The notes: a model not told the origin generated them from the letters alone. 64,000 nt of DNA from an uncultured Litoreibacter sp. (GCA_947493265.1 CANLQL010000004.1:372001-436000), one strand, 5' to 3'. Shown: positions 8,179 through 21,825, numbered from the stretch's first letter. Numbers and translations are program-made.

Positions 8179-8853
8179 TCAAATAGCGTCGCGAATGGCG
8201 CGGATATTTTGCCCGTAGACGTCTGGGTTCGACACAGAACCGCCTTTGAAAACGGCTGATCCTGCGACAAGCACATCGGCACCGGCAGCCACACAGCCAG
8301 GGGCCGTCGCGGGCGTCACACCACCATCGATTTCGATATGAACCTCCCGGTCGCCGACCATGTCGCGAAGCTTTGCGATCTTGTTGGCAAGCGGGATAAA
8401 CTTCTGCCCCCCGAAACCGGGATTCACGGTCATCACGCAGATCAAATCGATATCATCCATCAAATCCTCAATGGCCGAGGCTGGCGTCCCTGGGTTCAAC
8501 GCAACCCCTGCCTTTGCGCCGGCACCACGGATGGCTTGAAGTGTGCGGTGGATATGTGGACCCGCCTCAACATGGGCTGTGATGAAATCCGCACCAGCTT
8601 GTGCGAACGCGTCAATGTATGGATCAACGGGGGCGATCATCAGATGCACATCCATCACCCCCTTGATATGGGGCCGTATCGCCGCGCAGGTTGCGGGACC
8701 AAAGGTGATGTTGGGCACAAAATGGCCGTCCATGACATCGACATGCACCCAATCAGCGCCTTGCGCTTCAATCGCTTCGCATTCCAGACCAAAATTTGCG
8801 AAATCTGCCGACAGAATAGACGGTGCGATTTTTACAGAACGATCAAATGTCAT
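8179..8853 (-). CDS. rpe: Ribulose-phosphate 3-epimerase
   Basis: IAPSILSADFANFG, HVDVMDGHFVPNITFGP, MTVNPGFGGQKF. Confidence 0.97.
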   Translation of the reverse strand: MTFDRSVKIAPSILSADFANFGLECEAIEAQGADWVHVDVMDGHFVPNITFGPATCAAIRPHIKGVMDVHLMIAPVDPYIDAFAQAGADFITAHVEAGPHIHRTLQAIRGAGAKAGVALNPGTPASAIEDLMDDIDLICVMTVNPGFGGQKFIPLANKIAKLRDMVGDREVHIEIDGGVTPATAPGCVAAGADVLVAGSAVFKGGSVSNPDVYGQNIRAIRDAI

Positions 8854-8983
8854 GGCAGACCCCTTTGGTTTGATCCGTTCCTAACGGCTCCGCTCCGCGA
8901 GGGAAACTAGATTTACGAGGCCTGCCGCTTGCACGCGCGCAGCCACCATGCGAGTTTTGCGTAGTCGTGATTGAAAGCCCTCC

Positions 8984-9979
8984 ATGATGCCTCAGACAGC
9001 CAAAATGATCGAAACCGCGCAATTGCCGCAAGTCCATCTGCCTCGCAACGATGGAATGGCGTTGGATTTGGACTGGGTTGCCCGTGTTCAAGCCAACACG
9101 TCGGCGATTGAACGGCGCGCCAAAACCTTTCCGGGCAGACGTTCGGTCAAGAAAGATCACCAGGCGGCGTGGCTTCTGAAGGCCATCACCTGCATCGATT
9201 TGACTACACTGTCTGGCGACGACACGGTCGGCCGGGTCAAACGGCTCTGCGCCAAGGCGCGTCAACCCGTGCGCGCAGATTTGATGGATGCATTAGGCAT
9301 GCCAGCGATCACGACCGGCGCTGTCTGCGTCTACCATGACATGATTGAAACCGCCGTCGACGCATTGGAAGGGACCAATATTCCCGTGGCCGCAGTATCG
9401 ACCGGGTTCCCGGCGGGGTTAAGCCCGCTTCATCTGCGCGTGGCCGAGATTGAGGAAAGCGTCAAATCCGGTGCGCGTGAGATCGACATCGTTATTTCCC
9501 GCAGACATGTCCTGACCCAGAATTGGACCGCGCTCTATGACGAAATGCGGGCGTTTCGTCAGGCCTGCGGGGATGCACATGTCAAAGCAATCTTGGCCAC
9601 GGGCGAGCTTGGGTCGCTCAGAAATGTTGCGCGGGCTAGCTTGATTTGCATGATGGCGGGTGCCGACTTCATCAAAACCTCAACCGGGAAAGAAAGCGTC
9701 AATGCCACCCTGCCCGTCAGTCTGGCGATGATCCGAGCGATCCGTGACTACTACGACGCGACGGGCGTTCATGTGGGCTACAAACCTGCAGGTGGCATTT
9801 CAAAGGCGAAAGACGCAGTGACTTATCTGGCGCTGATGAAGGACGAATTGGGCGACCGGTGGTTGCAGCCTGATCTGTTCCGGTTTGGGGCCTCATCACT
9901 GCTCAACGACATTGAACGTCAGCTCGAACATCACGTGACAGGCGCGTATTCCGCCGGCTATCGCCATCCGCTGGCTTAA
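8984..9979 (+). CDS. deoC: Deoxyribose-phosphate aldolase
   Basis: DeoC family protein with GADFIKTSTGK and VGYKPAGGI motifs. Confidence 0.92.
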   Translation: MMPQTAKMIETAQLPQVHLPRNDGMALDLDWVARVQANTSAIERRAKTFPGRRSVKKDHQAAWLLKAITCIDLTTLSGDDTVGRVKRLCAKARQPVRADLMDALGMPAITTGAVCVYHDMIETAVDALEGTNIPVAAVSTGFPAGLSPLHLRVAEIEESVKSGAREIDIVISRRHVLTQNWTALYDEMRAFRQACGDAHVKAILATGELGSLRNVARASLICMMAGADFIKTSTGKESVNATLPVSLAMIRAIRDYYDATGVHVGYKPAGGISKAKDAVTYLALMKDELGDRWLQPDLFRFGASSLLNDIERQLEHHVTGAYSAGYRHPLA

Positions 9980-13177: not shown

Positions 13178-13852
13178 TTAAACGCGGGGTTTGCCCCTCC
13201 ATGTATCCAGCCACGCTTTGAAGCGGCCCCAAACACCTGTTGCTTGATCACGGGCCGCATCGGCACGCGCGTCGACGGCATCCCAGGTCTCACCGGCATC
13301 TTCTAAAAGCGGGTCGATTTTCGAGCGGCGAAACCACTGCGTCAAACGATAGAACCCAAGACAGAGGCCTGCGAAAATGATCAGGATCAGGATGTTGAAC
13401 CACGGGATCAGGCGTTGTTCCGGGTCATCGATCGGGCGCACACCGACAGCGTTTGGAAAAATCGACAGGAATTCATTTCGCCAACCGTAATGCGTGACAA
13501 CAACCCATTGTGGCGTCCCTTTCGGACTGACAAGATCAGCAGCCTCGGTTTGCAGGTTCGACGAGTCGAGCTTGAAATAAGGCGGCCAGCCCCAGCCAGT
13601 ATCTTCGTTGCGGTAAACCATGACACGGCCATTCGTGCGCACAGTATTGATGAAGCGCACATCACGATTTGCACCTGTTGCCTCCTGACCCGTGTCCGCC
13701 CCCGCCCAGAAGATAGAATTCTCGCCGAAGTCGACACGACGCACTTCTGTTTCGACAATTCGCGCGATATCGCGCTGCGGCAACGTGTAGTGAAAGAAGC
13801 TGGCGATCAGCAGCCAGAAGATAATCCAAAAGGTCCATTTGACATAACGCAT
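13178..13852 (-). CDS. DUF1523-like membrane protein, nine-gene operon member I
   Basis: N- and C-terminal TM segments; resembles DUF1523 proteins of Rhodobacterales. Confidence 0.7.
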   Translation of the reverse strand: MRYVKWTFWIIFWLLIASFFHYTLPQRDIARIVETEVRRVDFGENSIFWAGADTGQEATGANRDVRFINTVRTNGRVMVYRNEDTGWGWPPYFKLDSSNLQTEAADLVSPKGTPQWVVVTHYGWRNEFLSIFPNAVGVRPIDDPEQRLIPWFNILILIIFAGLCLGFYRLTQWFRRSKIDPLLEDAGETWDAVDARADAARDQATGVWGRFKAWLDTWRGKPRV

Positions 13853-13862
13853 GGCAGCTTCC

Positions 13863-14132
13863 TTACATAAAGTTCATGACATAGACCAAGACCGCGATAA
13901 CCGCGTAAGGCACTATGAAAACGCCAAAAATCAGCTTCCGACGGAGGGAGCCGTCATAGTTTGAAAGTCCGGTTTCGATGAACGCGTCGCGGTCGCCCGT
14001 CATACCTTCTTCGTCCCATTCTTCACCAAGCTTGGTCCGCCTGACAGAGCGCGACCACGCCGATAGCACAAAATAGACGACCAGCATGACGAGGAAGGCA
14101 AAGAAGGCCAACCTGAGTATTCCGATGATCAT
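13863..14132 (-). CDS. Small membrane protein, operon member H
   Basis: MIIGILRLAFFAFLVMLVVYFV..., two TMs; ATGA overlap with upstream gene. Confidence 0.65.
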   Translation of the reverse strand: MIIGILRLAFFAFLVMLVVYFVLSAWSRSVRRTKLGEEWDEEGMTGDRDAFIETGLSNYDGSLRRKLIFGVFIVPYAVIAVLVYVMNFM

Positions 14133-15469
14133 TTGCCCCTCCTGATACTGCCCCAAGGGCCCACAACGTCAACTAAATCAACTTCGTCCGGTCCGGTCAT
14201 CGAGGCCTCCCGCCCGAACAAGGCTTCGCGCGCTCCGGCCTTGTCGACCTGATATTCCCGTTCAAGGAAATCTGCCACGAAGGCCTTCTTTGGATCAGGC
14301 CAGCTACGATACAGCGCATAGAATAACTCTTTATGGCAAATGAACAATTGGCGGATATCCAACGGTGTCAGTTCTGCCAATAGACGGTTCACCAGATCGC
14401 GGTCAGCATGCGGCTTCGCACGCAGCGTGTAGAAGTACGCCGGATGCTCTGACGTGATGCGCGGGAAGGAACCGCCACCTTCCGCCCAGCGCAACAACCT
14501 ATTCAGGCCGTGGAAGGCTTCCGGCAATTCGCTGCTATAGCGGCGCGCAAGTTGGCGCAGATCCCGTCTGTTCGCACCTTCCAACGGTGCCCCCAGAGAG
14601 GCCGCCACATCAACCGTGACGAAGTCCATTTTCTGGCGGATGATCGCCGCCGCATCCAGACCTTTGATACCGATAATCGGCTCTGCCAGGTCGTTCATTT
14701 CCAGAAACGCCGCAATCTGGTTTCGATCATTCAAATCCATCATGAACGGGATCGGCAATTTGCCAAGCGCGTCCTTACCACCGACAGAAATTGCGGCCGG
14801 ATGTTCGGCTTCACGGAAAACATAGAGACCACCGAAATGTTCGGTCCAGAAATTCTTCTGCTCAAAACTGGTCTCTTTCAGTGTAATCGGCGCGCGTGTG
14901 ACATCCCCGGTTTTCCGGGCAAGACCAATCATTTCCGCAATCAGCACGTCGTCCCACCAGGCGTCCTCGCGGGTTTTGAAATCCTCGATCATACGGGCCA
15001 ATTTCCCAGCCTGAGAGACATGCGCCTCCGTTGTGTCCGCTTCGACCGTGATCTTGCGAATGTCGAACAGATCAGCGGCCTCACTTACGCGGTAGACAGA
15101 GTTTAACAACTCGCCCGCAACCGCATCGCGCGCCGTCAGTGCAAAAAGCTGGTTTTCATTGTCTTCGATAAACTGGCGCAGAATACCGCGGGACGTGGAA
15201 AACTTCGCCTCTAGCAGAGGTGCAGTTTTTTGTTCCGTCGACAAAAGAATGAACTGACGATTGCAACCATTTGGGTTGAGATAGAGCGGATCGCCCAACT
15301 CATCCCCGACCTCCGGTGCGAACCCAGAGATATCGATGTGAAAATCGGTCAGGTTGGTGGTTTTGCCCGTCAGATGTTTCAACGCGCGATTATAGCGTTC
15401 CACCAAAGAGGGGCTGCTGACATGAAACAGGTTGCCATACATCAGGCCTTTTCGAATCAATCGCATCAT
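14129..15469 (-). CDS. Conserved hypothetical protein, 446 aa, operon member G (possibly DUF6638)
   Basis: Start MMRLIRKGLMYGNLFHVSSPSLVERYN; 4-nt overlaps on both sides. Confidence 0.7.
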   Translation of the reverse strand: MMRLIRKGLMYGNLFHVSSPSLVERYNRALKHLTGKTTNLTDFHIDISGFAPEVGDELGDPLYLNPNGCNRQFILLSTEQKTAPLLEAKFSTSRGILRQFIEDNENQLFALTARDAVAGELLNSVYRVSEAADLFDIRKITVEADTTEAHVSQAGKLARMIEDFKTREDAWWDDVLIAEMIGLARKTGDVTRAPITLKETSFEQKNFWTEHFGGLYVFREAEHPAAISVGGKDALGKLPIPFMMDLNDRNQIAAFLEMNDLAEPIIGIKGLDAAAIIRQKMDFVTVDVAASLGAPLEGANRRDLRQLARRYSSELPEAFHGLNRLLRWAEGGGSFPRITSEHPAYFYTLRAKPHADRDLVNRLLAELTPLDIRQLFICHKELFYALYRSWPDPKKAFVADFLEREYQVDKAGAREALFGREASMTGPDEVDLVDVVGPWGSIRRGK

Positions 15470-15702
15470 GAGCGGCGGGCCTTCGCGAGTTTCAACGTCA
15501 AGGCGATAAAGCCCCCGCCGATCCAGATGGCAATGGCGAACATGATCAGGAAGCTGAAATAGACCTCCCAGTAACCATCTGATGCATGGAAGCAATTGAT
15601 ATCGCGTGCTGTCCAGAACCCGCAGACAGACCCCGCTACAAGCCAGGCAACCACAAATGGTGCCAGCACCACCAGAACCGCTATGGCATGCAGCTTCGTC
15701 AT
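15466..15702 (-). CDS. Small membrane protein, 78 aa, operon member F
   Basis: MTKLHAIAVLVVLAPFVVAWLV..., two TMs, ATGA overlaps on both sides. Confidence 0.65.
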   Translation of the reverse strand: MTKLHAIAVLVVLAPFVVAWLVAGSVCGFWTARDINCFHASDGYWEVYFSFLIMFAIAIWIGGGFIALTLKLAKARRS

Positions 15703-16010
15703 GAATTCAACACACGTTTTGCGCGCACGATATAGGCAATCACCATGATCGGCACCCAAACCATTGCCGTGATCCAGGTCCAATACCAGGCCCAGCTTCC
15801 CAATGCAGCGACACCGCCATCATTCATCATCACAGCACCAAGCCACAGCATGTGAACGGCAAATATGCCTGCACCGGCCCAGATTATGCAATAGACCATC
15901 GCCATGCCGAACTCCGCGGGCGACGTCGCGGGGCGTTTGGCAAACCACAGCCCCATCGCCAGTCCGATCAACATAGGCGCAAGCCAGGCAAGGCTAATGG
16001 CAACAATCAT
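15699..16010 (-). CDS. Small membrane protein, 103 aa, operon member E
   Basis: MIVAISLAWLAPMLIGLAMGLWF...; three predicted TM segments. Confidence 0.65.
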   Translation of the reverse strand: MIVAISLAWLAPMLIGLAMGLWFAKRPATSPAEFGMAMVYCIIWAGAGIFAVHMLWLGAVMMNDGGVAALGSWAWYWTWITAMVWVPIMVIAYIVRAKRVLNS

Positions 16011-16026
16011 GACAGGCTCCGATTGC

Positions 16027-17973
16027 TCACGATTTGCTCTCCAGATAGCGCCGCTTCGCTTCTTCGGTCCGGCCAAAATCGCGGATCATGTTCTCAATCG
16101 CCACTTCGTCAGATTTATCCGCATAGCGGAATTCGCTATCGGCGTAGCGGTTGATCTCCTGAATTACCATTTCCACCGTGATTGGCTGGCGCAACTCTTC
16201 GATCATACCGCGTTTTTCGTCGTAATTCTTGAACAGGAAAAGATCCGGGTCATCCATCCACTCATCCGGCAATTCGAAATCCATCGCGCGGACTTTAACC
16301 GCATCTGTGATGTTCTTGATCGCCCGCCCTGTGAAACGTTCATCGGCTTCCTGAATACCCTTGAGATACGTTCCCAGCTTGGCAATCGTATCCAGCTTGC
16401 CGATATCTTTGGACACACGATCGAACACCCGCTCCAACCCGGCTTCATGAGGACGTGCATGGCTTTCAAAACTGGCCGCAACAGCTTTCTTGATTTCCTG
16501 AGCGGCAAAGACCTCGTGCTCACCCACAGGGATGTCGTGGTTCTTGCCCATCAACAGATAGAGAATGTCGATATAGTCATCCCGCGTAATTGGCCCATCG
16601 ACCAGGAAACGTGCACCAGCGCGCTGGCGAAGCGCGTCGTCCACATTCTCCGGATAGTTTGAGAACATCCCGAACGTGCAGTTGCCACGCACCACCGTAT
16701 TGGCTCCCGCGAAACTCTCCATCAGCACAGCCGTGATCTCCAACTGGCCCGCGCTGGACTGACGGTCGCCCCGCTTGCCGGCCAACTGATCGATATCGTC
16801 GATGGTTCCAAAACCGATCACATTGGGATCAATGATGTTGTTGATAAAGGCCTTGGCGTTCTGACCGGATTTCCCTTGATAACTGTCTATATTATCCGTG
16901 CTGAGGTTCTGGTACCGAAACGCGTAGCCAGCCGTTTCGCAATACCCTTGGATCAACCCTGCCATCATCTGAATAAGCGTGGTTTTCCCGGTCCCGGGCT
17001 TGCCATCGCCCATGAAGGTGAAAATGAAGCCGCCGAGTTCGGCAAACGGGTTCAGTTTGCGCTCAAAATCATAGGCCATCAGCATCTTCGACAGCTTCAT
17101 CGCCTGATATTTGGCAATATGGTTCCCCACAACCTCGTTGGGCTTTTTGAAGGTCATCGTCAGGGTCGATCCTTTGCCCCGTGCCGCTGGTGTGAAGCCG
17201 CTGATTGTCAGATCATCTGCCTCAATCCTGTACGCTGACGAATGGAACGCTTCCAGACGAGGCGCGTTTTGTGCGCGCAATGCAACCTTTTCCATCAACT
17301 GCTCGGCATAGGCCAAAACTGTCGCCACCAGTTGACCATCATCACCGGCAAATAACGCAAGGTCCTGGTCCAGCTCCCACAAACTTCCATGCAGCGCCAA
17401 CAAGGCATTGTCCGTCAAAACCTCTTCGACAGCGCCGATTTCCACGGTCACTTCTGACGCATTTGACGCCAGCAAGAAGGCCACCGCATTGCCAAACGCA
17501 TAAGTGCTCGCCAAGGCTTCCGCCGCCAACAGCTCGCCAAACTCAGCCTTTTTTGCATCACTCAGACGGCCCGCAAGATTTTCGCGTTTCAACTCCGCCA
17601 GCCCCGTGGCTTCCGAATAGGCCTCCCCGATCGCCAACCCGATTGCCAAGGCGCGCCGCAGCCCCTGCAAAACCGACGCCTGCACCGCTGACGGCAATGC
17701 GTCTTCGCCAACAGCCTCGATCCGCTCGATCAAACGCACACCTTCTGGCCGTGCGGTCGACCGTGTTACAAGACCGGGTGTCGTCGATCGGAACCGCCGA
17801 CGGGTGCCCAAGCCCGAAGACCTCTCAGCAGCTGCCACCTCCGTCGATGGCGCGTCCTTGGCCTTTGCAATGCGCGGCGTATGGTCCACGCCTTCCAACA
17901 TCGCCACCGCAGCACCGTAATGGGCGCGGATTTCATCTTCTTTCAACTCCATCAGATCAGCGGATACACTCAC
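16027..17973 (-). CDS. AAA+ ATPase, 648 aa, operon member D
   Basis: Walker A GDGKPGTGKTTL, Walker B FGTIDDID, sensor-1/Arg-finger region FGMFSNYPENVDDALRQRAGARF; GTG start. Confidence 0.9.
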   Translation of the reverse strand: MSVSADLMELKEDEIRAHYGAAVAMLEGVDHTPRIAKAKDAPSTEVAAAERSSGLGTRRRFRSTTPGLVTRSTARPEGVRLIERIEAVGEDALPSAVQASVLQGLRRALAIGLAIGEAYSEATGLAELKRENLAGRLSDAKKAEFGELLAAEALASTYAFGNAVAFLLASNASEVTVEIGAVEEVLTDNALLALHGSLWELDQDLALFAGDDGQLVATVLAYAEQLMEKVALRAQNAPRLEAFHSSAYRIEADDLTISGFTPAARGKGSTLTMTFKKPNEVVGNHIAKYQAMKLSKMLMAYDFERKLNPFAELGGFIFTFMGDGKPGTGKTTLIQMMAGLIQGYCETAGYAFRYQNLSTDNIDSYQGKSGQNAKAFINNIIDPNVIGFGTIDDIDQLAGKRGDRQSSAGQLEITAVLMESFAGANTVVRGNCTFGMFSNYPENVDDALRQRAGARFLVDGPITRDDYIDILYLLMGKNHDIPVGEHEVFAAQEIKKAVAASFESHARPHEAGLERVFDRVSKDIGKLDTIAKLGTYLKGIQEADERFTGRAIKNITDAVKVRAMDFELPDEWMDDPDLFLFKNYDEKRGMIEELRQPITVEMVIQEINRYADSEFRYADKSDEVAIENMIRDFGRTEEAKRRYLESKS

Positions 17974-17982
17974 GCAAATCTC

Positions 17983-18016
17983 CTTCTTCTTGCAAAAAAT
18001 ACCTCCGCCGGAGGCG
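17983..18016 (-). repeat. Palindrome-plus-tail intergenic repeat, copy 1
   Basis: Minus strand GCGCCTCCGGCGGAGGTATTTTTTGCAAGAAGAAG; hairpin followed by T-run, between genes C and D. Confidence 0.7.
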
Positions 18017-18039
18017 CACTTACGTCAAAATCAATCCTG

Positions 18040-19170
18040 TCATCGATAGCTGACGACCCGGCCTGCCGGGCTGACAACAAATTTCCGCACTGTTTCAAAC
18101 CCTGCCGGGCGCTTTTCTTCCAGAACTTGAAAGGGTTTCTGTGGCAAAATCAATGAGCGCGAGATCGACGTCGCCCCCGTCTCGGCCCCGCGTCCAGCAA
18201 ACGGATCAAGCTTGAATATCTCCCGCTCCACCTGCCCGAACCAGCCTTTTTTTTCCATCTCTACCCGCTCGGAATGCAAGTCCTCTACTGTCCAGGCCAA
18301 CGCCCAATCTTCCCCTGGCGCGCCTTGCGCTTCTTCCAAAACACCCCGGATCGGGCCGGATTGGCGCGTGAATGTGTGGCTGTACATCGGACCCAGATGG
18401 ATGCGCCGCAACCGTTTGGGATGCAGGTCATCAAAATCGCGATCAAAGCCTTGCGCAATGGTCAGAAGTTTCAATCCACCCGTTGCCTGCGCGCTCAGAT
18501 GGGCCTGTACAGCAGGCCAGCGCCGCGCATCTTTCGGCAAACCTGTTTCGCCGGTATCTTCCAAATCCATCAGGTAAAGCGTTGGCACATTTTGCTGTGT
18601 GTCATAGACCGCCCAATGCACCAGATACGTCCGGCGATCGTCTTTGTTTCCCGTCCAAAGTGTCTCAGGATCATTGGTTGGCCAAAACAGCTTTCCGCGC
18701 GCCAAAGCCTCATAGTATAGCCGCTGCGACATCGCAAATTGCAATTTCGTGGGGATCTGCAACTGCCCAACAATCTCGCGGATCATTTCGTCTTTCAACT
18801 CGGAGGCTGAGCGCATCCCCTTCAGGTGGCGTTCCGCCTGCTGTGCGTCATTGGCCATCTTGATGACCTCGGCAAATACCGGGAACCCGCTTTCGATCTT
18901 GTCAATTGTAAGGGAGCCGAAAAACTGCCCCGTATCACGCCCCGTCAGCAAATACTTGTGGCTGAGCGCCCGAAATGTCCGCGCGATCCGTGCAACATAG
19001 TCCGAGATGATCGACACATCGGTTTTAGAAAAAACCCGCTCCGCCTCCATCTCAGCCGCCACACGGCCCAAATGCCCGGTAATACGCTCAAACTTTGCAA
19101 AATAGCGGCGCGCTGCCAGGTCATCAGTGATGCCTGCATGGTCTTGGGTAAGGTCTATTTCTTCACTCAT
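18040..19170 (-). CDS. Hypothetical protein, 376 aa, operon member C
   Basis: Long ORF in a co-directional operon; no family recognised. Confidence 0.7.
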   Translation of the reverse strand: MSEEIDLTQDHAGITDDLAARRYFAKFERITGHLGRVAAEMEAERVFSKTDVSIISDYVARIARTFRALSHKYLLTGRDTGQFFGSLTIDKIESGFPVFAEVIKMANDAQQAERHLKGMRSASELKDEMIREIVGQLQIPTKLQFAMSQRLYYEALARGKLFWPTNDPETLWTGNKDDRRTYLVHWAVYDTQQNVPTLYLMDLEDTGETGLPKDARRWPAVQAHLSAQATGGLKLLTIAQGFDRDFDDLHPKRLRRIHLGPMYSHTFTRQSGPIRGVLEEAQGAPGEDWALAWTVEDLHSERVEMEKKGWFGQVEREIFKLDPFAGRGAETGATSISRSLILPQKPFQVLEEKRPAGFETVRKFVVSPAGRVVSYR

Positions 19171-19479
19171 CTATACTTCTTTGGACAGCCAAGCTTCCAT
19201 GCGCACATGCACCTTTCGAAGCTTTTGAGGCGCAGCATCCGTGCTATTTCTCAAGATGTAGGTCAGCAGGAAAAACATCGCCGACCAGATACCCGCAAAA
19301 AGCCCATACCACATCGCTTGATTGATCAACGGTGAGACGCTGTCACCGTAATTCGTAAGAAAAAAAGCACTCACCAAAATCAGCCCCAAACCCCCGAAGA
19401 AAAGGTAGAAACGTCGGTCAAACCGTTTGAGTGGGCTGAGCTGCCTGAACCTATCGTGCTGTCTTGGATCAAGCGCCAT
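19171..19479 (-). CDS. Small membrane protein, 102 aa, operon member B
   Basis: MALDPRQHDRFRQLSPLKRFDRRFYLFFGG..., two TMs; overlaps gene A end. Confidence 0.65.
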   Translation of the reverse strand: MALDPRQHDRFRQLSPLKRFDRRFYLFFGGLGLILVSAFFLTNYGDSVSPLINQAMWYGLFAGIWSAMFFLLTYILRNSTDAAPQKLRKVHVRMEAWLSKEV

Positions 19480-20545
19480 ACAGGTTCTTGTCATGCTTCT
19501 CGACGATCTTCTCAAACCGGCGGGCGAAACGCTCATCGGCTTTGGCTTTCTGCTCCAGCACTTTGCGGGCAAAGACCATCTGATCCTCATGCGCTTCCAT
19601 CATTTCAGCCATCCGCGTATTCGTGGCCACCCCGATACCCGCCATCGCCGTCTGGGCTTCCTGATCAGTTTTCACGCCAATTTCGTTGATCTGGTGCGCC
19701 ACGTCCTGCTGTTGCGCGGTTTTCAATGACTTGGTCAGCGCATCATACAACACAACCCTCTGCTTGGTGTCTGTTTCAAGCTTATTGATTAGCACCATCT
19801 GCGTCGCGGCCTGGTTTTGCAGGGAGTCGATCCAGGTCTTGCCCTTCTCGATGTAGCGTTCCAAGGTCTGGGATTTCGCGATCTTGACCTGTTCTTCCTG
19901 CACCATCTGGTTATAGCGCGTGTTCACCGCGGCAAGCTCAGTTTCCAGCTTGGTCCGAGCCGCTGCATCCTGTTCTGTGGAAATCTTGTTTTCCAGTTCG
20001 ATGATCTTCGGATCCATCCCTAAAATCTCGGCGCGCAACCCCTCCAGTTCGGTCACGGTCATCTCACGCTCATCCAAAGTTTCGGACAGGTTACCTTCAA
20101 CCTTTGTCTTTTGCTCGTTCAACACGTTCAACTGGCCTTGAAGCAACGCCACAATCGTATCGGATTTGCCGATCAAGTCCTGCAGTTTGTCGTCAATGGA
20201 GGCTGTGCGCATCCGCTCCTGACGCATCGATTCCGATTTCCCCTTGGAGAAAATTCCAACAAAGCTTTCCCAGCCCGTCTTGTCGCGCATGGCAGAAAAA
20301 TCTTCGGAAAATCCGGATGTTACATCATCCAGACCCATGATCAGCTCGGCAATATTGGAGTTCATTAACTCGGTATGCGCATGCACCTCTTCCAAGGTCG
20401 CATTCTCGATATCCATAGAGATATCATCACCGGCCTTCATCTTTGCGCGCGCCGTTTCAATACGGCTGGTCAACTCTTCTATCTTTGATTGCGCCTCTGC
20501 CACTTGGCTTTGGCTTTCCCGGACCTGCGCGTCAAAATCGGCCAT
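19469..20545 (-). CDS. Cytosolic coiled-coil protein, 358 aa, operon member A (TelA-like architecture, tentative)
   Basis: Almost entirely helical/coiled coil, no TM or signal peptide. Confidence 0.7.
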   Translation of the reverse strand: MADFDAQVRESQSQVAEAQSKIEELTSRIETARAKMKAGDDISMDIENATLEEVHAHTELMNSNIAELIMGLDDVTSGFSEDFSAMRDKTGWESFVGIFSKGKSESMRQERMRTASIDDKLQDLIGKSDTIVALLQGQLNVLNEQKTKVEGNLSETLDEREMTVTELEGLRAEILGMDPKIIELENKISTEQDAAARTKLETELAAVNTRYNQMVQEEQVKIAKSQTLERYIEKGKTWIDSLQNQAATQMVLINKLETDTKQRVVLYDALTKSLKTAQQQDVAHQINEIGVKTDQEAQTAMAGIGVATNTRMAEMMEAHEDQMVFARKVLEQKAKADERFARRFEKIVEKHDKNLYGA

Positions 20546-21789: not shown

Positions 21790-21825
21790 CTTCCTTTTGC
21801 CAAAAATACCTCCGCCGGAGGCACC
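21790..21825 (-). repeat. Palindrome-plus-tail intergenic repeat, copy 2
   Basis: Minus strand GGTGCCTCCGGCGGAGGTATTTTTGGCAAAAGGAAG, between convergent genes. Confidence 0.7.

Follow-up and report, generated by a model that had tools for sequence, protein, structure and literature searches.

Here, I show that nine co-directional genes in a 64,000-nucleotide stretch of DNA from an uncultured Litoreibacter sp. (the window) are organised around a conserved core of four, named A, C, D and G, in which D carries the motifs of a classical AAA ATPase, the four proteins co-evolve, and a fixed slot between D and G, commonly joined to both neighbours by short overlaps, exchanges its content rapidly. The reading preferred here, with a probability of about 0.45, is that of a threading AAA+ core controlling an exchangeable effector in a stress or anti-phage response, the effector role and the defence function being suggested by the kind and the position of the slot genes.

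All nine ORFs which the original prediction had placed on the minus strand at 13178-20545 are present and run in the same direction. In the order of transcription they are gene A (19469-20545, 358 aa), which encodes a cytosolic coiled-coil protein and has an SD; gene B (19171-19479, 102 aa, two TM helices); gene C (18040-19170, 376 aa); gene D (16027-17973, 648 aa), the ATPase; gene E (15699-16010, 103 aa, three TM helices); gene F (15466-15702, 78 aa, two TM helices); gene G (14129-15469, 446 aa), a DUF6638 protein; gene H (13863-14132, 89 aa, two TM helices); and gene I (13178-13852, 224 aa), with two predicted TM helices. Eight of the predicted lengths stand, H being 89 aa long from its ATG and not 90. 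The tight packing that had been claimed is borne out for most of the block by overlaps of 11 nt (A/B) and of 4 nt each (E/F, F/G and G/H), by the abutment of B and C (0 nt) and by gaps of 16 nt (D-E) and 10 nt (H-I); it is interrupted by a C-D gap of 66 nt, which holds a terminator-like hairpin, so that the operon may be two transcription units. Above the Pfam cut-offs there are matches for three proteins only, namely D (AAA, PF00004, E=2e-11), G (DUF6638, PF20343, E=1.7e-225) and I, whose expected likeness to DUF1523 is confirmed (PF07509, E=1.2e-69); the same scan found no family for A, B, C, E, F or H. Searches of the nine proteins against NCBIfam, PADLOC and PHROGs added nothing specific, and the PADLOC system models matched the core proteins weakly, through generic AAA (TRIP13, IetA) and coil similarity; the claim that the gene set has no known function agrees with all four scans.

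The AAA domain of D spans about residues 322-460, and no relatives of the N-terminal ~290 aa were found in searches of Pfam and the PDB. The features of a classical AAA protein (PF00004) are all there: a Walker A motif (G-x-PGTGKT), a Walker B motif, the arginines of the SRH (DDALRQR) and an aromatic pore loop (SYQG, which reads [ES]YQG in Sinorhizobium and Vibrio). These motifs are conserved, and the Walker B sequence GFGT[IV]DDID, with Asp-Asp in place of the usual Asp-Glu, occurs in 150 of 152 loci. A single-sequence search of the PDB returned an i-AAA protease, a fidgetin-like protein and Vps4 as the nearest solved relatives, unlike a profile search with a 12-row alignment of D, which returned no match. 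By analogy with classical AAA proteins, D is predicted to be a hexameric threading ATPase.

The partners of D are less easily placed. The coiled coil of A is conserved, and hmmscan against Pfam gave no PspA/Snf7 match in it and, at E<0.1, no TelA match (PF05816). In profile comparisons with hhalign the probability of a relation between A and TelA was 0.9% and 7%, to be set against 1-6% for a reversed-TelA control, diverse alignments included; the TelA-type identity, considered because A and TelA look alike, is thus rejected at the sequence level, its score being no better than that of the control, and any relation would be a remote one. A genuine TelA gene lies elsewhere in the same genome (G000:C2:503271-504263, locus L134; PF05816, E 4e-102). 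The AlphaFold2 model of C (pLDDT 87) has no match at E<=0.001 among PDB and viral folds; several T-fold enzymes (QueF-like, GTP cyclohydrolase, DHNA) are among its weak matches, which are non-significant (E about 0.5-1.3), and the viral matches, to ssRNA phage maturation proteins, have a TM of about 0.1 and are meaningless. G scores 749 bits against PF20343, for a curated cut-off of 27, and its structure model (pLDDT 84) has no PDB match at E<=0.001. DUF6638 is not mentioned in the literature searched, which takes in a minority of subscription journals and no bioRxiv preprints, so that an earlier description of the system may exist. Publications on DUF1523 appear unrelated, judging by their titles and abstracts.

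The conservation of the locus was assessed in a sample of about 150 loci. Of 72 loci, almost every one from a genus of its own, 70 show the order A-C-D-G-H-I, far more than chance would give; one of the two exceptions, from a genome outside the family (G427), yielded no H, and the other (L183) is split by a large insertion. Likewise, nearly all of 18 relatives of the window genome and 80 named Rhodobacteraceae loci keep this order, with B, E and F mostly absent or different; degenerate loci among the named ones are L064 (Roseovarius), which keeps A-C-D without G-H-I, and L088, a solitary D. Across genera, only six of the genes are conserved (A, C, D, G, H, I), and B, E and F are particular to their locus: the family of E occurs in just four sampled loci, F is missing from most relatives, and other genomes carry replacements at all three positions, so that the place in the machine which the original prediction had given to these small TM proteins is not supported.

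Genomes have either one, nearly full-length copy of D or none; D is found in 84 of 200 genomes of the family Rhodobacteraceae (42%), in 5 of 289 genomes of the class, exactly the five that also encode G, and in 26 of 399 genomes of the phylum. The core keeps its gene order in Rhodobacteraceae, Rhizobiaceae and Vibrio alike, A, like the others, having relatives in these distant loci. The Vibrio operon, whose D is 42% identical, consists of A-C-D-G with no slot gene, and neither H nor I was matched there; in Sinorhizobium the arrangement is A-C-D-[endonuclease, IS]-G-DUF2333, the DUF2333 protein replacing I after G. Twelve more genomes, mostly of one rhizobial family, fit the A-C-D-G pattern. 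H, a conserved neighbour of G in Rhodobacteraceae, is an addition of this family, and I mainly so.

Pairwise distances among A, C, D and G are correlated, with r ranging from 0.77 to 0.83 and permutations reaching at most 0.43, and those between I and the four core proteins less so (r 0.53-0.62). On the strength of lineage distribution and distance correlations, A-C-D-G are taken here as the machine and H-I as a family-specific membrane extension of it. The expectation of one coupled machine around the AAA+ ATPase is therefore upheld by the fixed order, by the co-occurrence of D and G in loci of many genera, which was the gene-neighbourhood check proposed at the outset, and by correlations of about 0.8. 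Median pairwise identity across Rhodobacteraceae is 80% for A, 76% for D, 66% for C and 64% for G. D follows the phylogeny: with genomes ranked by Ffh, 23 of the 25 closest have it, compared with 14 of the 50 most distant, and the core is mainly inherited vertically. Neither D nor G was found in 50,697 phage records, on which ground a phage origin was rejected.

Insertions into the operon are confined to few junctions. Across 141 loci, each with a different D protein, the stretch between D and G measures 706 nt at the median, reaching at least 150 nt in 90% of these loci and at least 600 nt in 59%; the A-C junction, occupied by B in the window and usually by an unrelated small TM ORF elsewhere, reaches at least 150 nt in 63%, the C-D junction in 10%, and the G-H and H-I junctions, never invaded, in none. 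In one locus (L071) the C-D gap holds at 8401-9966 an inserted 521-aa ORF with about ten TM helices.

The ORFs of the D-G slot, called with a home-made caller so that exact counts are approximate, belong to many unrelated families, and most encode small membrane proteins. Besides proteins of about 100-130 aa with 2-4 TM helices, the cargo includes a 2TM family of 15 members, two of them putAbiC proteins; HEPN-like proteins with an R-x5-H motif, six in number and with a clear motif in five; a double-HEPN type (RNNLYH and RNAVVH); 2TM-plus-helix proteins; Mrr, HNH and DUF559 endonucleases; AbiJ_NTD4 and DUF2971 proteins; and a GHKL-type ATPase. Pfam and PADLOC are the basis for calling Mrr, HNH, DUF559, putAbiC, AbiJ_NTD4, PIN+DUF433, DUF2971 and HEPN-type cargo. 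A probable toxin-antitoxin pair, DUF433 plus PIN domain, occupies the slot of one locus (L091, 11995-13094), and the largest insertion seen, of about 5.9 kb (L183, genome G213), comprises a sulfotransferase-like gene and a gene for a 1314-aa repeat-like protein. Other cargo is not of a defence type, such as the thioredoxin-like protein in the slot of two loci (L116 and L149). Rhizobiaceae carry a DUF559 gene as the insert, in one case beside an IS; in that locus (Sinorhizobium meliloti, L219, 10106-11851), on a record labelled pSymB yet 3.7 Mb long, the neighbour of the endonuclease gene is an IS4-like transposase gene. Among three cargo types searched for plasmid relatives, the double-HEPN type has them on Leptospira plasmids at 42% and the HEPN-like 259-aa type has none that were found.

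A case of exchange is provided by 13 Ruegeria loci, whose D proteins are 94-98% identical and whose slot content differs between strains: Mrr in two and a HEPN-like, a putAbiC-like and a 2TM protein in one each, the remaining loci having ORFs that are small TM or unclear. Since near-identical D proteins adjoin different cargo, turnover at the slot is fast beside a fixed core. The GC content of cargo genes of at least 140 aa lies 11 points below that of their own core genes (p 2e-11), and that of small cargo 4 points below. The commonest spacing of cargo is a 4-nt overlap, with D and with G alike. As a control, 64 flank genes of the same loci were examined: their leading Pfam families are metabolic or regulatory, and one PD-(D/E)XK family appears among them (best 25 of 123 families in both statements). 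PADLOC families number 24 in cargo and 21 in the flanks, where the matches are mainly regulators and generic ATPases; the difference is one of kind, not of number.

The preferred reading can be formulated as follows. A, C, D and G would form one ATP-driven protein-remodelling machine, in which a hexamer of D may pull clients through its Y-Q-G pore loop and A, C and G would be its dedicated adaptor, substrate and sensor proteins, with H and I probably tethering it to the inner membrane in Rhodobacteraceae. The gene or genes between D and G would then provide the exchangeable effector, be it a nuclease, a HEPN-type RNase, an Abi-type or a small membrane protein, which the core would hold inactive, or activate, once envelope or infection stress, the presumed trigger, alters it. 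The outcome would be a stress-triggered growth arrest or an anti-phage system with a swappable output, the output in the window genome being putatively the two small TM proteins E and F. A bolder version, to be held more tentatively, is that A-C-D-G represent a new and widespread chromosomal machine for immunity or stress suicide, which joins a classical AAA+ threadase to three protein families that have no known relatives. Gene exchange at a single internal position would keep supplying this machine with new effectors, and one sensor could then have nucleases, HEPN RNases, Abi proteins or small membrane-active proteins as its interchangeable outputs.

What favours an effector is the type of gene carried, its constant position, the overlaps at its junctions and the speed with which it is exchanged. 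Nearly as likely is that A-C-D-G are a housekeeping AAA+ machine, acting for instance in envelope proteostasis or the assembly of membrane complexes, and that the D-G spacer is a tolerated landing site, where the operon provides expression for accessory genes of the defence, toxin and small-membrane-protein kinds. Defence genes do reside in the spacers of other operons. Such a machine would explain a core that is stable, slow-evolving, mainly vertical, absent from phages and at times free of cargo, the very points that count against an effector: the slot is empty in Vibrio, in a second genome outside the class (L265) and in several Rhizobiaceae, so that cargo is not obligatory, and A and D evolve slowly, unlike typical defence sensors. 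The DUF559 insert of Rhizobiaceae, once beside an IS, and the thioredoxin-like and sulfotransferase-containing cargo also fit a landing site, and the effector is further disfavoured because the core matches no defence model beyond generic AAA similarity, because cargo and flanks hold similar numbers of PADLOC families, and because most slot genes are small membrane proteins without an assigned role. Mere tolerance, however, does not readily account for inserts that fall almost wholly into D-G (small TM genes also into A-C) and never into G-H or H-I, nor for tight overlaps on both sides, which suggest selection for co-expression with D and G.

Two further explanations carry less weight than an exchangeable effector or a landing site. 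In a remodelling system of the Psp or ESCRT type, A would polymerise through its coiled coil, and D would remodel the polymer where H, I and the small TM proteins create a membrane site; A is indeed a coiled coil, H and I are membrane proteins, Vps4 and fidgetin-like proteins are among the solved relatives of D, and gene pairs of PspA and AAA+ proteins are known (PMC11237479). This is nonetheless improbable, given that A matches neither PspA/Snf7 nor TelA, that E, F and B are replaceable, that H and I have no Vibrio counterpart and that nuclease cargo would be left unexplained. Even less probable, and indeed very unlikely, is that A-B-C and D-I are two adjacent transcription units of separate machines sharing a neighbourhood. 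In its favour is the terminator-like hairpin between C and D (17994-18016, minus strand; GCCTCCGGCGGAGGT-ATTTTTT). It coincides with a repeat, CCTCCGGCGGAGGTATTTTT, of which the window has two minus-strand copies, at 21802-21821 and, in the C-D gap, at 17994-18014, and the genome 7 matches at up to 1 mismatch; among relatives, a similar element occurs in 15 of 140 C-D gaps and at none of the operon's other junctions. Separate machines are nevertheless hard to reconcile with a gene order that keeps A and C together with D and G in all the distant lineages examined, or with the co-evolution of the four, and the element is missing from most C-D gaps.

If the slot genes are effectors, the locus would be a defence or stress system absent from the models of current detectors, present in 42% of the sampled genomes of Rhodobacteraceae, abundant marine bacteria, as well as in rhizobia and vibrios, and new effectors could be found simply by reading the genes between those of the ATPase and the DUF6638 protein. 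Even if the core has a housekeeping role, it would be a conserved and unstudied AAA+ machine, with two confidently predicted proteins lacking a match to a solved fold and a sharply defined hotspot for defence genes inside its operon.

Among known systems, the closest are the MoxR-vWA ternary and GTPase-centred NTP-dependent conflict systems, in which an NTPase core of strict order is accompanied by continually displaced effector genes (Kaur et al. 2020, PMC7159879). The conserved NTPase core and the fixed gene order are shared features, and the slot genes, which may be effectors, are exchanged between closely related Ruegeria strains. The MoxR-type AAA, vWA, VMAP, iSTAND and EAD domains of those systems were not found in the present locus, where D is a classical AAA protein; in particular, the MoxR-vWA system combines a MoxR-type AAA with a vWA protein, whereas only PF00004 passes the cut-off in D and vWA is found in none of the nine proteins. 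Their cores are also fast-evolving, in contrast to the slow A and D, and here, unlike there, the putative effector is encoded by a gene of its own, always at the same place inside the operon. The PspA/Snf7-Vps4 systems, of the Psp or ESCRT-like type (Ravi et al. 2024, PMC11237479), resemble the locus in coupling a classical AAA ATPase to coiled-coil and membrane proteins. Differences are the lack of a PspA/Snf7 match in A, proteins C and G without a counterpart there, and the variable nuclease/Abi slot of the present locus. TelA stress operons share a coiled-coil helical protein of a size comparable to A, which has no significant profile match to it. CBASS with TRIP13 combines an AAA ATPase with a menu of nuclease and TM effectors, a likeness to which a weak, generic match of D to the TRIP13 model (E=1.2e-4) may be added, but none of the nine genes is a CD-NTase, and no solved fold, that of HORMA among them, is matched by C or G. 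Accessory defence genes also lie between conserved operon genes in type I restriction-modification and BREX loci, as they do here, but the core of the present locus is no known defence system. The logic of effector exchange is already known; what sets this locus apart is its core proteins, which are not.
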